A stretch of 64,000 bases of DNA from positions 1,550,001 through 1,614,000 of the forward strand of contig NZ_CP053835.1 of the NCBI RefSeq assembly GCF_013201725.1, in the 5' to 3' direction. Made by a program: the position numbers and the translations under genes. Below the pieces are notes generated by a model that saw only the letters and a program-made list of their open reading frames with translations, was not told the origin of the DNA and made no database searches. This DNA comes from Arcobacter defluvii (GTDB lineage Bacteria; Campylobacterota; Campylobacteria; Campylobacterales; Arcobacteraceae). Below, piece by piece: positions 9,742 to 39,477 of the stretch. Position 1 is the first letter of the stretch, and every line of letters starts with the position of its first letter.

Positions 9742-10010
9742 TTGATGCCTTATTAAACTCTATTTTTACAGTAGTTTTAACTATTATATTTTTATATAAA
9801 TGGATTATCATTATTTCAGCTATCTTAAGTTGGATACGACCAGATCCTTATAATCCAATTGTTCAAATGCTTTATAGATTAACAGAACCTGCTTATGCAT
9901 TTGTAAGAAGATATATCCCAACTGTAGTTGGTGGAATGGATTTAGCTCCACTTATTTTAATTTTTGCATTAATTTTTTTAGAGACATTTTTAAAAAGTTT
10001 AGCTTTTTAA
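9738..10010 (+). CDS. YggT-family membrane protein
   Basis: A 90-residue integral membrane protein with two hydrophobic helices (roughly 8-35 and 65-90) around the conserved segment [33 protein letters not shown], typical of the YggT family. Family members are linked with cell division, osmotic tolerance or photosystem assembly in various lineages, but no firm biochemical role is known. The ATG overlaps the gltX stop. Confidence 0.85.
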
Positions 10011-31507: not shown

Positions 31508-31584
31508 GTCAAGGTAGCTCAGCTGGCTAGAGCGCTGGTCTCATAAGCCGGAGGTCGAGGGTTCGAGTCCCTCTCTTGACACCA
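31508..31584 (+). tRNA. tRNA with CAT anticodon (elongator Met, or Ile2)
   Basis: 77 bases with encoded CCA. Acceptor GTCAAGG / CTTGAC-type pairing closes normally, so it is not the initiator. Anticodon loop CTCATAA gives CAT; elongator tRNA-Met is most likely, but a lysidine-modified tRNA-Ile cannot be excluded by eye. Its 3' part is repeated at 39424, marking it as the insertion site of element 2. Confidence 0.92.
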
Positions 31585-31592
31585 TTTTAAAG
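31539..31592 (+). repeat. attL of element 2
   Basis: 54 bases from the anticodon loop to 8 bases past CCA, repeated at 39424-39477 with three differences: a compensatory G-C to A-T change in the T stem and one T-loop change. Confidence 0.9.
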
Positions 31593-31642
31593 CCATTTTG
31601 TAGGCTTTTCTTACTTATTAACAAATATAAATTTTCCAGTGA

Positions 31643-31662
31643 TGTTATACTTTGTTATAGTT
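31643..31662 (+). repeat. Left arm-type repeats of element 2
   Basis: TGTTATACTT (31643-31652) followed directly by TGTTATAGTT (31653-31662). The right end has two exact TGTTATAGTT copies in the same orientation at 39300-39319. Likely integrase arm sites, of a sequence unrelated to those of element 1. Confidence 0.6.
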
Positions 31663-31696
31663 TTCAATTGTTCAAATTTTAATAAAAGTTTGAAGA

Positions 31697-33196
31697 ATGA
31701 AAAATATTTATCTAAGAAATAATACTTTTTACTATCGCAAATCAATCCCAAAATCATTAAAAATCTTTTTTAAAAATAAATCCTTATATATACGAACATT
31801 AAGCACTAAATCAAGAGTTTTAGCTTTAAAATGTGCTAAACTATTAAATAATAAATTTAACGCAATTAAAGAGGTTTATTTTATGTCTTTTGATATTCAT
31901 CTTATTAATAAATTAGTTGAAGAATTTCACAACACCCAATTAGAAATTACGGAGAGAGATTTATACAACACACCAAATCCAGAAGACACATTGTTTGCAT
32001 TATGTTTAGAAGATACTATCGAACAACTTCAAAAAAATTATCATGATAATATTTTTGAAAAAGAAGAAATTAAACTTATTGCAAATAAGCTTAATTACAA
32101 GCCAAATAATGAAGAAATTCACGAAATAGGTAAAATACTACTAAATAGCAAAATAAATCATTTAAAAAATATAAATGATAATATAAACAAAGGTTATTAC
32201 AACAAAGCAAAACCAATATTTAAAAAAGTTGTTGCTGAAATAGAAACAAAAAAAATACATAGAACTATTGAATCAACATTTGAAAAGTTTAAAAAATATC
32301 AATCAAAAATAGATAAATGGACTTTGGATACAACTCAATTAGTAGATAGAGCTTTTAATATTTTAAATTTGTATTTTAAAGATAAAGATTTGGTTGATAT
32401 AAGTTTTGATGATTTAATAGATTTTAGAGATATATTGTTAGAAATACCAAATAAATTAACAATTTACAATTTTTTTAAAAATAAAGATTTAGATTTTATT
32501 CTCGAAAATAATGATGATTATGAAAAATTGGAAAATAGTACAATTAATAAATATATTATCAGAATCAATCAATACTTCAAATATATGCATAAGCTAAAAT
32601 ATATAACAAATGATGATTTTATTATTCCAAAATTTGATGAGAACCTAAATAAAAGAGTACCTTATACTAATGAAGAAATTGAGCTAATTAAACAACTTAT
32701 TAAAAATGACACTTTAGAAAATCAATTTATTACATATATAGCTACTTATCAAGGAATGAGATTAAAGGAAATAACACAATTACAAAAAAAAGATATTATT
32801 AAAATTGGTGATATACTTTGTATTGATATAAATACAAATGAAGATAAAACAACTAAAACTAAGAAAAGTGCAAGAATAATACCTATTCATAATAAATTGT
32901 TAGAATTGGGATTTTTAGATTTTGTGAATTTAAAAGATGATAAATTATTTAATATATCAAATAAGGATTTTAGTACATATTTTAGAAAAACTTATAAAAA
33001 TCAAATAAACGATGAAAAAACTTTTTATTGTTTAAGACATTCCTTCTTAGATACTTTAAAACAAAATGATTGCAAAATAGAACATTATCAATCTTTTGTT
33101 GGACATAGTCAAGGAAAAAATAGTGTTACAATGGATTATGGTAATCCATTTAATACAAAATTATTAAGTGGATTATTAGTGTTTATAGATTATTAA
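31697..33196 (+). CDS. Tyrosine integrase of element 2
   Basis: 499 residues. The N-terminus IYLRNNTFYYRKSIPKSLKIFFKNKSLYIRTLSTKSRVLALKCA is the DUF6538-type arm region of phage integrases. Catalytic domain: Arg in YQGMRLKEITQL, Lys in TKKSARIIP, the box FYCLRHSFLD, then VGHSQGKNSVTMDYG with the Tyr nucleophile. In the HxxR box the first His is replaced by Tyr (YCLR), a substitution seen in some active phage integrases. It lies next to attL, reading inward, while element 1 has its integrase at the right end reading inward. Confidence 0.9.
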   Translation: MKNIYLRNNTFYYRKSIPKSLKIFFKNKSLYIRTLSTKSRVLALKCAKLLNNKFNAIKEVYFMSFDIHLINKLVEEFHNTQLEITERDLYNTPNPEDTLFALCLEDTIEQLQKNYHDNIFEKEEIKLIANKLNYKPNNEEIHEIGKILLNSKINHLKNINDNINKGYYNKAKPIFKKVVAEIETKKIHRTIESTFEKFKKYQSKIDKWTLDTTQLVDRAFNILNLYFKDKDLVDISFDDLIDFRDILLEIPNKLTIYNFFKNKDLDFILENNDDYEKLENSTINKYIIRINQYFKYMHKLKYITNDDFIIPKFDENLNKRVPYTNEEIELIKQLIKNDTLENQFITYIATYQGMRLKEITQLQKKDIIKIGDILCIDINTNEDKTTKTKKSARIIPIHNKLLELGFLDFVNLKDDKLFNISNKDFSTYFRKTYKNQINDEKTFYCLRHSFLDTLKQNDCKIEHYQSFVGHSQGKNSVTMDYGNPFNTKLLSGLLVFIDY

Positions 33197-33228
33197 ATAA
33201 AATATTTAAGAAAATAAAATTTTTTTGA

Positions 33229-33257
33229 TTGACACAAGTTGGTCATTTACATATGAT
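33229..33257 (+). promoter_or_regulatory. Strong promoter of the nuclease operon
   Basis: TTGACA (33229-33234), 17-base spacer, TATGAT (33252-33257), 33 bases before the first gene, which has an AAGGA site. A near-consensus promoter with a full -35 implies steady expression of this cargo. Confidence 0.8.
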
Positions 33258-33289
33258 AAGATTTTATAAATAAAGAAGGAAATAGTGGA

Positions 33290-34489
33290 ATGAATTATAA
33301 AAATATAGATTTTAGAAAACTAGAAAATGCTTTAATAAAGTTATATGGAAAAATAGAAATAATTGAAGAATTACAAAAACATAGAGGAGATAAGTTTAAT
33401 ATTTTTTCTATTTTAAAAATGGAAAGATTGGAAGTTAAAACTCATTCATCTTTTTTATATGAACTTATAAATCCAAAAGGTACACATTATCAAGATGATA
33501 AATATTTAAGAGTATTTGTATATGAAGTTTTAAAAATTGAAGATTTTGATTTTGTAAATGTAAAAGTTGGTAGAGAAACTTTAATAGATGCAAATAGAAG
33601 GATAGATTTTACTATTGAAAATGATGATTATTATGTTGCTATTGAAATGAAAATTGATGCAACAGATCAAGATAAACAATTAAGTGATTATTTTGAATAT
33701 GCAAAAAAGCAAAATAAAAAGTTTCCTGAAATCTATTATTTAACTTTAGATGGTAGAAATTCCGATGAAAAAAGTGCAAAAGAAATTAAATATGAAAGAA
33801 TTTCTTTTCAATCTAATATATTAAATTTTATAGAAAAATCCATAGAAAAAAGTGCGAATTTACCAATAATAAGAGAGAGTCTTATTCAATATAGAAATCT
33901 AATATTAAATATTACAAATCAAACAACACAGGAAATACAAATGGAAATAATCGAAATTATAGATACTCCAAAAATGGCGGAAGCAGCGACGAAAATGTCA
34001 AAAGGTTTAGCTTATGCTTGGGCTAAAAGAGAAGTTTTATTTTGGGAAAAATTAGAAAAAAAATTAAATGAGTATTCTAAAAGTTATAACTTAGATACAA
34101 AAGGTTGGATAGTTTCATTTTATGATGAAGATATAAAAGACAATAAATTAAATTACATTATAAATGCAAAGATAAAGAATATGTATTTTAATAAAGATGA
34201 TTATTATTTTAAAATTTGTTCTTATTTTAATGATGATTTTGGATATCAAATGGAATTTGATGATAGTTCTAAAGATATAAATATTTTAGCTCAAAAAATT
34301 GGATTTAAGCCTACTACTAAATCAAGAAATTATAGTTGGATAAATTCAAATCTTAAATTAAATTTTTGTAAAGATTATGAAGAACCAACTTATGATATTT
34401 TTGATAATAATAAATTAGATGAAATTGTTGAAAATATTTTTAATGAAATAAAAAGCTATATGGATATCATTGTTAAAGAATTAAACTAA
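33290..34489 (+). CDS. PD-(D/E)XK nuclease superfamily protein
   Basis: 399 residues. The opening FNIFSILKMERLEVKTHSSFLYELINPKGTHYQDD and the core RRIDFTIENDDYYVAIEMKIDA (Asp about 105, then ExK) match the PDDEXK family often annotated as PF14281, whose members typically show an E...HS.fL..LL.P...H start. An additional helical domain follows (NLILNITNQTTQEI onward), then a beta-rich tail. Such proteins occur as stand-alone or paired genes in defence islands. First gene of a three-gene operon with its own promoter; nuclease activity and a defence role are inferred. Confidence 0.72.
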   Translation: MNYKNIDFRKLENALIKLYGKIEIIEELQKHRGDKFNIFSILKMERLEVKTHSSFLYELINPKGTHYQDDKYLRVFVYEVLKIEDFDFVNVKVGRETLIDANRRIDFTIENDDYYVAIEMKIDATDQDKQLSDYFEYAKKQNKKFPEIYYLTLDGRNSDEKSAKEIKYERISFQSNILNFIEKSIEKSANLPIIRESLIQYRNLILNITNQTTQEIQMEIIEIIDTPKMAEAATKMSKGLAYAWAKREVLFWEKLEKKLNEYSKSYNLDTKGWIVSFYDEDIKDNKLNYIINAKIKNMYFNKDDYYFKICSYFNDDFGYQMEFDDSSKDINILAQKIGFKPTTKSRNYSWINSNLKLNFCKDYEEPTYDIFDNNKLDEIVENIFNEIKSYMDIIVKELN

Positions 34490-34501
34490 AGGTAAAACAA
34501 A

Positions 34502-34894
34502 ATGGAAAATAAACTTGATAGTTGTATTAAAAATCTATTAGAAAATGTAGTTTCTCATAAAGATAGAAATAGTTATTTAGAAAATAGTTTAATATATAAA
34601 ATTATGGAAAATCAAGAAATGTGTTCAAAAGAGAGTTTTTTTTCATATTTTGAAGAAGAGGGTGAAATTTTTGAACAAATAGTAGAAGAGATAAATTTTG
34701 AAGAGTTTCAAAATGTAAAAACTTTATTATTAAATTGTATTTCAAGTAGTGAAGAAGTATTAATTGATTTTTATGCTAATGGTTTTTTAGATGATTTGAA
34801 TAAATTTAATAAAGAATCTAATATACATTTAGCAAATGTTGTTGTTAGAGATATAGATAAAATATTTTTCAATTTAATTTATCAAAAAAAATAA
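34502..34894 (+). CDS. Unknown acidic protein in the nuclease operon
   Basis: 130 residues, strongly acidic and helical (ESFFSYFEEEGEIFEQIVEEINFEEFQNVKTLL), no signal peptide, no membrane segment and no recognised motif. It starts 12 bases after the nuclease gene and ends 8 bases before the next, so all three are cotranscribed. A small acidic partner fits an inhibitor or adaptor of the nuclease, but that is only a guess from context. Confidence 0.55.
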   Translation: MENKLDSCIKNLLENVVSHKDRNSYLENSLIYKIMENQEMCSKESFFSYFEEEGEIFEQIVEEINFEEFQNVKTLLLNCISSSEEVLIDFYANGFLDDLNKFNKESNIHLANVVVRDIDKIFFNLIYQKK

Positions 34895-34902
34895 ATCTTA
34901 AT

Positions 34903-35325
34903 ATGTTAAATGAACTTCAAATAGTAAATAATAGACTTAAAAAATTACAAGATAAACTTTTAAGTGAAGCAATTAAACTTGATAAAGAACTTTTAAAAAG
35001 AATATCAAATAAAAATGATTTTTTATTTGATTATGAAATTGAACTTACTATTTCATTTTATCTTAAAGAAGATGAGGAAAATGTTTTTTCAAGTATTGAA
35101 GAATATTTGAAAAACATATCTCTAAATAATGACCAACATATTTGGAGATGGAGTGAAAATCATAATGAATTTTTTGGTAGAAAAAATCACCCAATGAAAA
35201 ATGAATATCATTGTTGGTGGTTTCATTGTTTATATGACCATAATAATTTAGAATTTGAAGATATATTAAAAATAGGAAAAATTTGGAGTGATATAAAAGT
35301 TTATTATCAATATCTTGAAGAATAA
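34903..35325 (+). CDS. Unknown protein, third gene of the nuclease operon
   Basis: 140 residues: a helical coiled N-terminus (IVNNRLKKLQDKLLSEAIKLDKELLKRI), then a beta segment (YEIELTISFYLKEDEENVF) and an aromatic, His-rich core (QHIWRWSENHNEFFGRKNHPMKNEYHCWWFHCLYDHNN). The His/Trp/Cys-rich core could bind metal. No family recognised. A tail-to-tail gap of 17 bases separates it from the minus-strand small genes. Confidence 0.55.
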   Translation: MLNELQIVNNRLKKLQDKLLSEAIKLDKELLKRISNKNDFLFDYEIELTISFYLKEDEENVFSSIEEYLKNISLNNDQHIWRWSENHNEFFGRKNHPMKNEYHCWWFHCLYDHNNLEFEDILKIGKIWSDIKVYYQYLEE

Positions 35326-35342
35326 TTTTTTAATAAATTTGA

Positions 35343-35657
35343 TTAAAACTTCAACTCAAAATCAACCAAATTCATATTTTTTCTAAAGATAGATTTTTGA
35401 TTTTCCAATAGTTCCAATTTCAGATCGATTTTTTCAATAAGATAAGAAGAAAGAAATTTATCTTTTTTGATAAATTTTTCTCTATCATTTTTTAGTTCAT
35501 TTTGAACAATAACCAAAGCTTTAATTTCCTTTGATAGTTCATCAACAAGAGCATTATTTTTATCACATTGAATTAAATAGTCCTTTTGTAATCTAATAGC
35601 ACTTAGTTGTTTACTAAGTATTATTAGATGTTTACATGGATTGATATTATATATCAC
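35343..35657 (-). CDS. Small coiled-coil protein, unknown
   Basis: 104 residues, nearly all helical with heptad-like Leu/Ile spacing (LSKEIKALVIVQNELKNDREKF, YLIEKIDLKLELLENQKSIF). Overlaps the upstream gene by 11 bases, so translation is coupled. Last of three minus-strand small genes of element 2. No function recognised. Confidence 0.5.
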   Translation of the reverse strand: MIYNINPCKHLIILSKQLSAIRLQKDYLIQCDKNNALVDELSKEIKALVIVQNELKNDREKFIKKDKFLSSYLIEKIDLKLELLENQKSIFRKNMNLVDFELKF

Positions 35658-35865
35658 TTTCTTTTTCTCTCAAAGAGTTTAAAAAATCTTGTTCCTGTAA
35701 TCTTTTTTTATCCTCAAAAAATTGTAAAGTTTTTTCTAAATCTTCTAAAAATAATTGATGTTGATGTTCTTCTATTTTTTGCAAAGCTTTTAAAAATTTC
35801 TTGATATTAGTTTCATCAACTTTATAATCAAACTTTTGTAATAACTCTATAATAAGTAAAATCAT
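35647..35865 (-). CDS. Small helical protein, unknown
   Basis: 72 residues, helical with alternating acidic and basic patches (IEEHQHQLFLEDLEKTLQFFEDKKRLQEQDF). An AAGGA site precedes the ATG. Middle gene of the small minus-strand trio, 13 bases after the first and overlapping the third. No function recognised. Confidence 0.5.
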   Translation of the reverse strand: MILLIIELLQKFDYKVDETNIKKFLKALQKIEEHQHQLFLEDLEKTLQFFEDKKRLQEQDFLNSLREKESDI

Positions 35866-35878
35866 TTATCTATCCTTT

Positions 35879-36295
35879 TTACTTGATATATAACGATTTT
35901 AAGATTTTATTAAAACCATTTGAAAAAGCTAATGTAATAAGGGTAGATATAACAATTTCTATATCTTCATTTAAAACATAATTTTCACCTAATTTTTGAT
36001 TTTTCTTATAGGCTTCAAGATTTCTAATAATTAGATTTAAAGAGTATATATCATTTTTATTTTCAATATTTTCTCTTATACTTTTTACTAGGTTTATTAA
36101 AGCCAAAATTCTTTGTTTTTTGAAGAAGTCTTGATTTGAACTATCAAATATTACATTTGCTAAATGTAATAAAATTTGTTTTAATGTAGCTTTTTGTAAA
36201 GCTTCATTTAAAAAATCTTTTTTAATATAAATCATTGTTTTGTTGTTGCTTTTACAACAATATTCAATCCTATCAAGTGTTAATCTACTATCCAT
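35879..36295 (-). CDS. Unknown helical protein of element 2
   Basis: 138 residues; the N-terminus carries RIEYCCKSNNKTMIYIKKDF and the rest is helical with conserved-looking Leu/Ile patches (ALQKATLKQILLHLANVIFD). AAGGA precedes the ATG. First of the three small minus-strand genes; lies downstream of the structured noncoding segment at 36573-36673, so its expression may depend on readthrough or on a promoter in the AT-rich leader. Function unknown. Confidence 0.5.
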   Translation of the reverse strand: MDSRLTLDRIEYCCKSNNKTMIYIKKDFLNEALQKATLKQILLHLANVIFDSSNQDFFKKQRILALINLVKSIRENIENKNDIYSLNLIIRNLEAYKKNQKLGENYVLNEDIEIVISTLITLAFSNGFNKILKSLYIK

Positions 36296-36483
36296 TTTTT
36301 AATCCTTATTTATAAATATTTGTATATAAAAAATTGTTTTTATATAGAATCTATTTTAAGTTAGATAATTGATTTAGTTCACTTTTTTTCATATTCAAAA
36401 ATATTTTTGTCATACAATAAAATAGTTCATATAATTAGTTATAAATTATAATAAGTAAAATAAAATTAAAGATGTATTGATAG

Positions 36484-36503
36484 TTTCGCTTTCTTTCGCT
36501 TTC
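36484..36503 (+). repeat. Tandem 10-bp repeat TTTCGCTTTC x2
   Basis: Two adjacent exact copies (36484-36493, 36494-36503) in the 436-base gene-free stretch 36296-36731. Related TTCGCTTTT sequences occur near 38930 and, inverted, at 39244. Possibly protein-binding sites (iterons) of the element. Confidence 0.4.
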
Positions 36504-36572
36504 AAAAATAAAGTTCAATATTTTATTTAATTCATTTTTCAAACAAATTTTTAAGTCGTTATTTTTTTAGTG

Positions 36573-36673
36573 GTGGGTTGTCTTAGGCCCACTTCGCCAT
36601 AAATGGCTAACTTAATAAATTAAGTTGTAGGTTTAGGGTTACACCCTAAAAACCCAAAGTTCGACAAACCCAC
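36573..36673. other. Highly structured noncoding segment (multi-hairpin)
   Basis: In the gene-free stretch between relaxase and small genes. Outer arms GTGGGTTGTC (36573-36582) and GACAAACCCAC (36663-36673) pair with one bulge. Inside are three perfect hairpins in a row: GCCAT/ATGGC (36596-36607, AA loop), AACTTAAT/ATTAAGTT (36609-36626, AA loop), TTTAGGGT/ACCCTAAA (36632-36650, TAC loop). It is visibly richer in G+C than its surroundings. Candidates: origin of transfer or replication, or a folded RNA. Confidence 0.65.
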
Positions 36674-36731
36674 AACTTTAAAAGATAACTTAATTAGGTT
36701 TACTATTTTAAAATGTGTTAATCCTTTTTAA

Positions 36732-38150
36732 CTATCTTTCAATCTCATAAGTATTTTGTAAATTTAAATTTCTTGTATATATTTGATAATCTTTCTCAAG
36801 ATTTTTATCTTTCAAATAGGATTTTAGAGTATAGTTTTCTTCTTCCAATATATCTTTTTTATCAATTAAATCTTTAATTTTTAGATTTAGCAAATCCAAC
36901 TTTTTTAAATGTTCATTTAAAGATTGGTTATCCAATTTTGATTTTTCCAAATGTGATTTTAAAATAGAATTTTCATTTTTTAACTTTTCAAGTTTTTCTA
37001 ATTTCAGATCAAGATTTGATACATTATAAAAATTATCAATTAGGGATTTATAAAAATCATTTATATTATTGATGTAATATTTATTATCCTTAGATTTTGA
37101 AGTGTTTTCTTTTAGATAGGTTTTGAAATAAGATTTTATTTCATTTGCATATTCTAAATCATCTTGAATAATTTCTTCTTCTTTTTGAACTTGATTTTTT
37201 AGTTCTTTGATTTTAGAATCTAATTGTCTAAATTCTTCTCTTTTACTTTGTTCTTCACTTGTAAGATTTTTGATGTTTAGAGATAACATTTTATAAATAT
37301 TACTATCCTTTTCAAATTGCAATCTTAGTTCTTTTAGTTGATTTTTTTGTGAATTTAGCAAAGTATATAAATCTTTAATTTCTTGATTTTTTTGTAGCAG
37401 ATCCTTTTGTAAAATCTTCAATTCTTGATTTTGTTTATTTAAAATAAAATCATTTCTTTTTTGATGTTTTAGTTTTGTTTGGAATTTTGATAATCCTCTT
37501 CTAAAATCTAATCCAACACTATTAAAAGATTTTTGTGCTAAGGTTTGTAATTGTCTATAATCCTTTTTTCTAAAATTAGAAAGGATTGCTTTCTTTTGTT
37601 CAAAGTTATAATTGTGAACAATGAAATGTGCATGGATATTGTGGTGAAGAATATTATCTTTATCAATATAGCCTTCATCTTTATGGATAGAAATTTGTAA
37701 TGTATTCATTCCAAACTTAGCTTTTAAATCATTCATATATTGCTTAAAACCCTCATTTATATCAATTCCACTACTTATGTACTCTTTTGCCTTTTCTTCG
37801 CTTAAACCTACTTCAAATTCAATTAGGTGTTTTGTTTGATAATCTTTTCTATTTTCATTTTGTAATTGTTCCAATCTTAGATTTTCTAAAAAATCAAAGC
37901 TATCTTTTAAATCTTTATAATTATTAGATTTACTTTGTTTTGAATAGTAATTCTTTAAATTTTCTTCATAAGTTCCACTACTTACAATACTATATGCAAA
38001 AGTAATAGTTTCATTTCCTAAACAATTACTTTCATCAAGTAAATGGGGTAAATCTTCCCCATCTTTTTTTCTTTCAACATTGTGTTCATAACAAGAGCCT
38101 AAACTATTTTTTGAATGGCTTATTACATTTACTTGTACAAAATTACTCAT
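36732..38150 (-). CDS. MobV-like relaxase/mobilization protein
   Basis: 472 residues. The central HKDEGYIDKDNILHHNIHAHFIVHNYN (about 157-183) carries the HxDE ... HxHxH pattern of Pre/Mob (MobV) relaxases, which nick oriT and pilot one strand to the recipient; a downstream RQLQTLAQKSFNSVGLDFRRGLS segment also fits. From about residue 235 to the end it is a long coiled coil, typical of MobV C-termini. Overlaps the upstream helper gene by 8 bases. AAGGA precedes the start. Confidence 0.8.
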   Translation of the reverse strand: MSNFVQVNVISHSKNSLGSCYEHNVERKKDGEDLPHLLDESNCLGNETITFAYSIVSSGTYEENLKNYYSKQSKSNNYKDLKDSFDFLENLRLEQLQNENRKDYQTKHLIEFEVGLSEEKAKEYISSGIDINEGFKQYMNDLKAKFGMNTLQISIHKDEGYIDKDNILHHNIHAHFIVHNYNFEQKKAILSNFRKKDYRQLQTLAQKSFNSVGLDFRRGLSKFQTKLKHQKRNDFILNKQNQELKILQKDLLQKNQEIKDLYTLLNSQKNQLKELRLQFEKDSNIYKMLSLNIKNLTSEEQSKREEFRQLDSKIKELKNQVQKEEEIIQDDLEYANEIKSYFKTYLKENTSKSKDNKYYINNINDFYKSLIDNFYNVSNLDLKLEKLEKLKNENSILKSHLEKSKLDNQSLNEHLKKLDLLNLKIKDLIDKKDILEEENYTLKSYLKDKNLEKDYQIYTRNLNLQNTYEIER

Positions 38151-38871
38151 TAATCAATCCTTCATTTTTTAGTTCTTTTAAGTAGATTGAAATTTGTGTA
38201 TTTCCTAATTTTTCATTATTTTGTTCTAAAATGTTTTTTATAGTTTTGATAGTAATTTTTTCATTTTGTGCAACTAAATCTAAAGCATACTTTAAAACCA
38301 AAGTTTTTGAATCTTGATGTCTTTTTGCACCATTTATTTTATTAACTTCCTCTCTTGATTTTATACCTTTTTGCTCTTTATGGTCTTGGTAGTATTTTTG
38401 ATTATAAGCCTTTTCAACTTTTTTTATTTGGCTCATTCTATTGTAATTTTTTTTGCACCATTTCAAAATCTTTGAAATGTATTTTTTTAGTAAATCATTA
38501 CTTACTAAATTTTCATCATATAAACTAAATTCAAAATCATCAAATGATTTTTTCATTTTTTCAACATATAGTAAATATATCTCATTATTTAATTGTAAAG
38601 CCATTTTATTAATTAGTGCAAGTTCTAAAGCTATCCAATCTACTTTAGTATTTTTATACATATAAGCATAGTTTCTAATAGTTTGTTTTTGTTTTAAAGT
38701 TGGGTTTTCAATTTTAACTAATTCATCAATTTTTAATTTGAAATTATCTTTGATGATTTTGTTTTCTTTCACTTTATTTTTTATACTTATCATTGTATAA
38801 GTAGTAAGTTTTTTATATAGAAACTTTTTATGTTGAGAATATTCAACTTTTATAGTATTTAGTAAATCCAT
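38143..38871 (-). CDS. Mobilization accessory/DNA-binding protein
   Basis: About 242 residues from the ATG at 38871 (MDLLNTIKVEYSQHKKF), which has AAGGA upstream; the longer frame from 38901 would contain that site. Very basic and helical; the C-terminal TIKTIKNILEQNNEKLGNTQISIYLKELKNEGLI looks like a winged-helix DNA-binding segment. It precedes and overlaps the relaxase, the usual place of an oriT-recognition helper. Assignment rests on context. Confidence 0.6.
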   Translation of the reverse strand: MDLLNTIKVEYSQHKKFLYKKLTTYTMISIKNKVKENKIIKDNFKLKIDELVKIENPTLKQKQTIRNYAYMYKNTKVDWIALELALINKMALQLNNEIYLLYVEKMKKSFDDFEFSLYDENLVSNDLLKKYISKILKWCKKNYNRMSQIKKVEKAYNQKYYQDHKEQKGIKSREEVNKINGAKRHQDSKTLVLKYALDLVAQNEKITIKTIKNILEQNNEKLGNTQISIYLKELKNEGLINE

Positions 38872-39032
38872 TTTTAAATCCTTTTTTTGATTAAGATACA
38901 AATAGATTTTAAGTTAAAGTTTTAGTTCAATTCGCTTTTAAACAAACTTTTTAGAGAAAGTTTTGAAATTTGTAGATGAAATTTTTAATAAGAGGAATTT
39001 CGTTTTTAAATTAAGGATATTAAAGGAAGTTA

Positions 39033-39089
39033 GATAACATTTACAATGTTATCGTTCTTAGTTAAATTAAAAAAATTTAATTCAACTAA
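39033..39089. other. Tandem hairpins upstream of the mob operon (candidate oriT)
   Basis: Hairpin 1: GATAACATT-TAC-AATGTTATC (39033-39053), perfect 9-bp stem. Hairpin 2: 14-bp arms at 39058-39071 and 39076-39089 with one mismatch and an AAAA loop. They lie about 160 bases upstream of the mobilization operon, in the gene-free stretch 38902-39423, the usual place for the origin of transfer of MobV elements. Confidence 0.5.
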
Positions 39090-39299
39090 TCACATTTTTT
39101 TCTATTATAAGTTATATTTATCCATTTACAATAATATTCTTCAATTCATACCTTAACAAGTTTTATTTTACTTAATATAAATATTTGATAATAAGATAGA
39201 TATATAAAAATATAGATACTAATGTTAAATATCCTTATTTTAAAAGCGAAAAAATAGATTTATTCATTAAAATAAAAAGAATTTGTGAATTTTTTGATG

Positions 39300-39319
39300 T
39301 GTTATAGTTTGTTATAGTT
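39300..39319 (+). repeat. Right arm-type repeats of element 2
   Basis: Two exact adjacent copies of TGTTATAGTT, in the same orientation as the near-identical pair at 31643-31662. They stand about 105 bases inside attR. Confidence 0.6.
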
Positions 39320-39338
39320 TTTTTTAAGTTTTACTTGC

Positions 39339-39344
39339 TATAAT
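39339..39344 (+). promoter_or_regulatory. Outward-facing -10 box near the right end of element 2
   Basis: TATAAT, in the context GCTATAATTCC and without a clear -35, points out of the element across attR towards tRNA-Thr at 39496. It could replace the promoter that element insertion separated from tRNA-Thr. Confidence 0.4.
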
Positions 39345-39423
39345 TCCACACGAATTTTTGAAAATTGTTTCAAAAGTCCTACTTTAAAGATTTCTTTAAA
39401 AGTGTTGTCCCAATGGCGTATGC

Positions 39424-39477
39424 TCTCATAAGCCGGAGGTCGAGAGTTCAAGTCTCTCTCTTGACACCATTTTAAAG
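39424..39477 (+). repeat. attR of element 2 (displaced 3' half of tRNA-Met)
   Basis: 54 bases matching 31539-31592 with three differences; no 5' tRNA half precedes it, so it is not a functional tRNA. It should be the ancestral chromosomal 3' end, lying 18 bases before tRNA-Thr. Confidence 0.9.

Follow-up and report, generated by a model that had tools for sequence, protein, structure and literature searches.

A conserved multi-hairpin segment downstream of a relaxase gene as a candidate transfer origin of an integrative mobilizable element in Arcobacter defluvii

Gene content and boundaries of element 2

The window analyzed here is the whole 64,000-nt stretch, which corresponds to bases 1550001-1614000 of a 3.02-Mb single-contig genome. 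Within it, element 2 (31536-39477; approximately 7.9 kb) is delimited by two copies of the tRNA-Met 3' end, which form a direct repeat of 57 nt with 93% identity (31536-31592 and 39421-39477); the tRNA-Met gene itself lies at 31508-31584. On the plus strand, element 2 encodes a tyrosine integrase (31697-33196; Pfam Phage_integrase, E = 4.5e-10) and a protein of the PD-(D/E)XK nuclease superfamily that is probably cargo (33290-34489; PDDEXK_4, E = 2e-33). The minus strand carries two gene groups. The first is a trio of small genes of 138 amino acids (gene 1; 35879-36295; homologue in genome G008), 72 amino acids (gene 2; 35647-35865; homologues in G199 and G008, a part in G030 and a weak match in G031) and 104 amino acids (gene 3; 35343-35657; homologues in G199 and G008). 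The second comprises a relaxase of 472 amino acids (36732-38150), with HNVER near its N terminus and HKDEG-x(9)-HNIHAH, and, directly before it, a 242-amino-acid protein (38143-38871) that is assigned to no family and is 84% identical in G199.

No conjugation-channel family was found in a Pfam scan of nine element 2 proteins. Because of this, the combination of an integrase, tRNA attachment repeats and a relaxase reads as an integrative mobilizable element that lacks channel genes of its own. Genes for a coupling protein and for VirB4 each occur twice in the host genome and could act as a helper for element 2. These two type IV secretion places (1256158-1266543 and 1837612-1847997 of the genome) have opposite orientations and equal scores, as if one conjugative element had been duplicated, and would be the candidate helper. 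Judged by title among the matches listed, no open-licence paper on Arcobacter or Campylobacterota mobilizable elements, or on oriT and relaxases, deals with this element.

Structure and folding of the intergenic segment

The segment under study sits in the gap between the two minus-strand gene groups, where no open reading frame of at least 50 amino acids is listed between 36296 and 36731. Its G+C content is 41.6% over 36573-36673 compared to 21.4% for element 2, a level reached by only 9 of the 7,786 windows of 101 nt in the element, of which it is the G+C peak if the repeat end is excepted. The gene-free, G+C-rich character given in a preliminary description of this DNA is hereby confirmed, as are the three perfect hairpins with loops of 2-3 nt and the complementary outer arms that enclose them. 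These hairpins are H2 (36596-36607; GCCAT-AA-ATGGC on the plus strand, GCCATTTATGGC on the minus strand; 5 bp), H3 (36609-36626; AACTTAAT-AA-ATTAAGTT; 8 bp) and H4 (36632-36650; TTTAGGGT-TAC-ACCCTAAA; 8 bp). The outer arms, GTGGGTTGTC at 36573-36582 and GACAAACCCAC at 36663-36673, pair over 10 bp, interrupted by a one-base bulge. With an additional, outermost pair of arms (36558-36566 with 36681-36689), absent from that description, the whole folded segment extends over 36558-36689, or about 130 nt. The 5' outer arm has two possible partners, namely the 3' outer arm or the bases 36586-36592, with which 36573-36579 forms an alternative hairpin, H1 (36573-36592).

Folded as single-stranded DNA, the plus strand has a z-score of -3.15, which none of 200 shuffles equaled; folded as RNA, the minus strand scores -2.92, equaled by two of 200. 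Ranked by energy among the 3,194 plus-strand 130-nt windows of the 64 kb, the segment comes fifth. Its z-score is -3.8 at the best of five offsets, a value matched by 6 of 500 random windows, and -1.9 to -2.8 at the other four. By folding alone, the segment is unusual rather than extreme, and its conservation is the stronger evidence.

Close copies and covariation

DNA searches yielded five copies of the segment including that of the window, the other four being in G008, G025 and G030, which belong to the window's genus, and in G199 from another family of the order. Matches occurred in 5 of 60 genomes (one a 33-nt chance match), in 14 of 104 family genomes (10 of them short chance matches) and in 4 of 398 order genomes (one short). 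The short matches of 24-36 nt (G017, G007, G023, G406, G443, G276, G451, G382, G035 and G430) were discarded as chance because their surroundings show no such segment. The plasmid and phage collections contained no DNA match of the segment, and the viral contigs contained neither an exact match to one 19-base pattern nor a relative of the relaxase.

In all five copies, the segment lies at the 3' end of one and the same relaxase gene or what remains of it; the relaxase of G025 is truncated by the contig end and that of G030 contains stops. The neighbors on the opposite side vary. Between segment and trio, G008 has two other reading frames. In G199, the distance from the segment to two genes of the trio is about 3.5 kb, with genes in between that by eye resemble an insertion sequence, and others.

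Sequence changes among the five copies preserve pairing in part. The six basal pairs of H3 are AACTTA/TAAGTT in the window and G008, and AACTTA/CAAGTT, with a single mismatch, in G030. G025 and G199 have AATCAC/GTGATT instead, an exchange of four of the six pairs on both sides that may be one event common to these two genomes. In H1, one of seven pairs is doubly changed (G030) and a mismatch occurs in G008. H2 and H4 show no compensatory changes, and the outermost arms are nearly invariant. The covariation that the preliminary description had proposed to look for in homologues is found in part, in H3 and H1, and is lacking in H2 and H4. The same description had named a competing pairing of AAGTTGT (36622-36628) with ACAACTT (36672-36678), which is present in the window but has lost its 3' arm in the other four copies; the two pairings of the 5' outer arm are the better supported alternatives. 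Retained G.T pairs amount to 8 cells on the plus strand versus 5 on the minus strand, mostly from H1, a mixed signal that was rejected as a guide to the strand; it counts against an RNA and, as it does not favor the minus strand, also against the transfer origin proposed below.

These observations bear on the suggestion that the segment is a structured RNA, transcribed from one strand, that would control the trio or the relaxase operon as a leader, an attenuator or an antisense RNA. The minus strand indeed folds well as RNA, and the location between two minus-strand gene groups also speaks for it. Moreover, a plus-strand promoter-like site (TTGTCA-17-TATAAT, 36407-36435; 11 of 12 matches) points into the segment, for which reason this explanation keeps some weight. 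The copies in G025 and G030 are preceded by TTGTAA-17-TATAAT; in G008 and G199, the only such sites are different ones that match at 10 and 9 of 12 positions. Nonetheless, promoter-like sites number 7 compared to 4.7 (sd 2.4) in shuffles, an intrinsic terminator was sought and no terminator-like site was found, and the Rfam matches are weak (best 19.7 bits against a threshold of 56). The idea of an RNA ahead of the trio is disfavored by the reading frames that intervene in G199 and G008, and regulation of the trio was dropped as the principal interpretation, since the segment accompanies the relaxase rather than the trio. All in all, we deem a structured RNA distinctly unlikely.

A relaxase family outside curated models

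Sequence and profile searches with the relaxase gave matches in 14 of 398 genomes at an E-value of 1e-3, in 31 of 397 at 1e-8, and in 9 of 104 and 3 of 44 at 1e-12, and provided intact relatives; the distant ones are about 30-35% identical. In nine of nine aligned relaxases, H23 is invariant within H[ND]xR or HNVxR. The strict MOBV motif I, HxxR, is present in five of the nine, and the remaining four (the window clade and locus L041) have HNVxR, which is one residue longer. The relaxases also retain HxDEG with a later HxH or HxQ. MOBV motif III, HxDExxPHxH, does not describe the window protein, which has HKDEGYIDKDNILHHNIHAH with about ten extra residues and no proline. Neither the window relaxase nor its tested relatives match Pfam Mob_Pre; no curated family among the Pfam, NCBIfam and PHROGs models names the window relaxase, and PDB sequence searches found no relaxase. 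An AlphaFold model from a two-row alignment has a mean pLDDT of 42.7.

Hairpins at the relaxase 3' end in distant relatives

Eight lineages were compared: the window (with which G199 and G008 were counted), L041, L042 (G031), L043 (G224), L085 (G430), L044 (G178), L045 (G167) and L086 (G006); G022, a broken copy in G027 and more distant Campylobacterota matches were set aside. The distant relaxases have a similar hairpin layout at the same place, built from different arm sequences. Over 93 windows per locus, of which those starting between -75 and +150 relative to the stop codon count as flank, the relaxase 3' flank has the lowest folding energy in the window, L041, L043 and L044, ranks second in L042, third in G430 and L045, and fifth in G006. 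By z-score, it ranks first in L043, L044 and G006, and second to fifth in the remaining lineages.

The layout nearest to that of the window is found in L041, where the arms differ and order and spacing agree: CCCACTACG, the hairpins ACCTGAAGGT, TCTACTTGCAGTAGA and TTTAAGGGTTAAAACCCTTAAA, then AACCCAAAA, compared to CCCACTTCG, CCATAAATGG, ACTTAATAAATTAAGT, TTTAGGGTTACACCCTAAA and AACCCAAA in the window. L043 and G430 (the latter by eye) have several hairpins inside long outer arms. L041 (9601-16057) represents a second, related element of the window's own genome, with an integrase that overlaps tRNA genes, a relaxase that is 35% identical and its own hairpin segment.

A large multi-hairpin fold with outer arms, strong when single-stranded and located downstream of a relaxase gene, is also what a single-strand origin (sso) would look like. 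In such an origin, the transferred or displaced strand folds while single-stranded and lets RNA polymerase or primase start the complementary strand. Its position would be that of sso1 of ICEBs1, directly downstream of nicK (PMC4595007), which is why this explanation stays alive, and that of the putative ssoA described downstream of the MOBV relaxase gene of IMESag-rpsI (PMC5090054). Within our comparison, it is favored by the flanks of G178 and G167, which fold strongly and carry no nick core, and by a phage GPA-like replication initiator beside the relaxase in L041, with a weaker match of that kind in L043. The ssoA CS-6 word is TAGCGT, and it is absent from both strands of the segment. The lack of a DNA match in plasmid or phage collections also speaks against an sso, as does a conserved core abutting the hairpin in several lineages, which an sso does not predict. 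We regard an sso as the main rival of a transfer origin, yet as fairly unlikely.

A nick-like core next to the hairpin

On the minus strand of the window, H2 is followed by the core 5'-GAAGTGGG-3' (36588-36595), which resembles the published MOBV1 nick sites TAGTGTG/TTA and TAGTGCG/TTA (PMC5090054). A hairpin followed within 1-2 nt by [T/A]AGTG[G/A]G occurs in five of the eight lineages, four of which have it on the relaxase-sense strand: GCCATTTATGGC-GAAGTGGG in the window, GACCTTCAGGTC-GTAGTGGG in L041, TCAGTTTACTGA-TTTAGTGAG in G430 and TCACCTTGCGTGA-TTTAGTGAG in L043. In the fifth, L042, a 15-pair imperfect hairpin precedes TTAGTGAG on the strand opposite to the relaxase; judged by eye, about 37 bp are duplicated in direct orientation beside this hairpin, at 9830-9930 of that locus. 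The core reads TAGTGGG in L041, TAGTGAG in L042, L043 and G430, and AAGTGGG in the window, G008 and G199. Relative to the stop codon, its start lies 72-75 nt downstream in L041, L043 and G430, 139 nt downstream in the window and, on the opposite strand, 83 nt downstream in L042. Assuming cleavage directly after the final G of the core, the gap between hairpin and nick would be 8 nt in the window, L041 and L042, and 9 nt in L043 and G430. The flanks of G178, G167 and G006 contain no AGTGRG. In the first two, at 8425-8635 of L044 and 8240-8426 of L045, strong G+C-rich hairpins nevertheless lie at the relaxase 3' end, possibly representing another nick type or a single-strand origin.

The core was searched for after the sequences had been seen, while the published motif is independent of them. 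In 1,000 shuffles of the flank from -60 to +240 of the relaxase 3' end, a hairpin of at least 5 bp with NAGTGNG arose 9 times for the window, 4 times for L041 and 9 times for G430; L043, which has a 4-bp stem, gave 18. For AGTGRG by itself, the share of shuffled flanks that contain it is 4-11%, and in G430 two additional occurrences lie on the opposite strand. A scan of 14 loci returned five matches in relaxase 3' flanks (the window, G199, G008, L041 and G430) and, elsewhere, one each in G199, L041, L042, G430 and G167 as well as four within palindromic DNA on the contig of G022. Taken singly, core matches are therefore weak, and it is the shared position that counts.

The 12-mer TTTAGTGAGCTA is common to the relaxase 3' flanks of L042, L043 and G430. 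It occurs 38 times in the 104 family genomes, compared to 15 times for a reversed control word; the flanks of G031, G224 and G430 account for three of these 38 sites. Thirty of the 38 sites were inspected: besides G430 and G224, 28 have no stem of at least 5 bp in front, save three A+T-rich stems of 5-6 bp, and these 28 were taken as chance. The plasmid AB-1167-LD of A. butzleri has TTTAGTGTGCTA after its relaxase gene, which was left uncounted because it is surrounded by repeated similar words. On the 5-kb contig of G022 (L046, 4850-4880), a relaxase with HNER has a long palindrome upstream of it that contains TAGTAGTGCG, which comes near the canonical MOBV nick in sequence and in position.

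A different location for the transfer origin was also considered, namely before the mobilization operon at about 39032-39094. There, a 63-nt run with a perfect 9-bp hairpin (GATAACATT-TAC-AATGTTATC, 39033-39053) is identical in the window and G199, while the region is 82% identical overall. The hairpin segment would then be an accessory site, e.g., one bound for termination or by a relaxosome partner. The MOBV1 cases described in PMC5090054 and PMC5863519 place oriT upstream of the mobilization gene, in line with this location. However, 39001-39130 contains no AGTG on either strand, the hairpin pattern is confined to the window and G199 among the loci examined, the similarity of G030 ends just before it, and an operator or an integrase site would account for the run equally well. 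Taken together, we consider an origin at this upstream site highly improbable.

The segment as a candidate oriT

The reading we prefer, with a probability of roughly 64%, is that an integrative mobilizable element of 7.9 kb, located in tRNA-Met, has the segment as its oriT, with the minus strand predicted to be nicked between 36588 and 36587. The broader proposal of a replication or transfer origin in the preliminary description is supported by the relaxase 3' position in all five copies and by the nick-like core beside a hairpin in divergent relatives. Several observations count against an oriT: three of the eight lineages lack AGTGRG in the flank, no curated family names the relaxase, the window core is AAGTGGG rather than TAGTGNG, the core of L042 is inverted and would send the relaxase first there, and the segment lies downstream of the relaxase gene with its core 72-139 nt past the stop codon.

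We infer the nicking, its strand, the direction of transfer and a switch between forms as follows. Element 2 would first excise from tRNA-Met. The MOBV-like relaxase, encoded just before the segment, would bind H2 extruded on the relaxase-coding (minus) strand, cut 8 nt past it (5'-GAAGTGGG/CCTAAG-3') and stay on the 5' end. A conjugative helper would then export the cut strand with the small gene trio leading and the relaxase genes last. The trio (36295 to 35343) would be sense on the transferred strand, making it the predicted leading region with gene 1 as its first gene. H1, which overlaps the outer arms, can bury the predicted nick, so that the segment may exist in a closed form and a cleavable one and switch from one to the other. 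Partner proteins may bind to H3, H4 and the outer arms, or these parts may aid strand copying in the recipient; an oriT does not by itself explain them, as the oriT of pMV158 is much smaller.

Among known systems, we favor a mode of action like that of a MOBV oriT, by analogy with pMV158, and do not claim MOBV membership since the relaxases match no Mob_Pre model. In pMV158, 8 nt separate the IR1 hairpin from the nick that follows it, and it is the coding strand that is transferred; there are also hairpins that exclude one another, among them IR2, which encloses the nick (PMC5863519). H2 has the spacing of IR1 and H1 encloses the predicted nick as IR2 does. Together with a similar core and a predicted nick on the relaxase-coding strand, these partly exclusive hairpins liken the segment to the MOBV1 origins described in PMC5863519 and PMC5090054. 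In both of these, oriT is upstream of the relaxase gene. The segment differs from them in its downstream position, its length of about 130 nt, its extra hairpins, the first base of its core (A instead of T) and a relaxase that does not match Mob_Pre. As an element, it resembles IMESag-rpsI of Streptococcus agalactiae (9.1-9.5 kb), which has an integrase, a MOBV relaxase and TAGTGCG/TTA, and for which PMC5090054 reports that no type IV secretion or coupling genes were observed. There, oriT is upstream and the putative ssoA downstream of the relaxase gene, whereas the core of element 2 was found only downstream. With sso1 of ICEBs1, the segment shares several stem-loops in an intergenic position directly downstream of the relaxase gene; unlike sso1, which is 76% identical to a known plasmid sso (PMC4595007), it has no plasmid or phage match and does have a nick-like core. 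Tentatively, both functions might be combined in a composite origin. The segment of about 130 nt would then act as oriT on the donor strand and, after transfer, as the start of second-strand synthesis or in early expression of the first-entering trio, within a Campylobacterota relaxase family outside the curated models searched.

Implications

Should the oriT reading be correct, a group of mobile islands in Arcobacter-type bacteria and related Campylobacterota would have a testable transfer origin, with the nick assigned to a position and a strand. The relaxase of the window has escaped the Pfam, NCBIfam and PHROGs models. The position of the segment after the relaxase gene, with its extra hairpins, would make this an unusual oriT, and searches for oriT that are restricted to the region upstream of the relaxase gene would miss such origins. 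The trio of small genes would in that case be the predicted leading region of the element.
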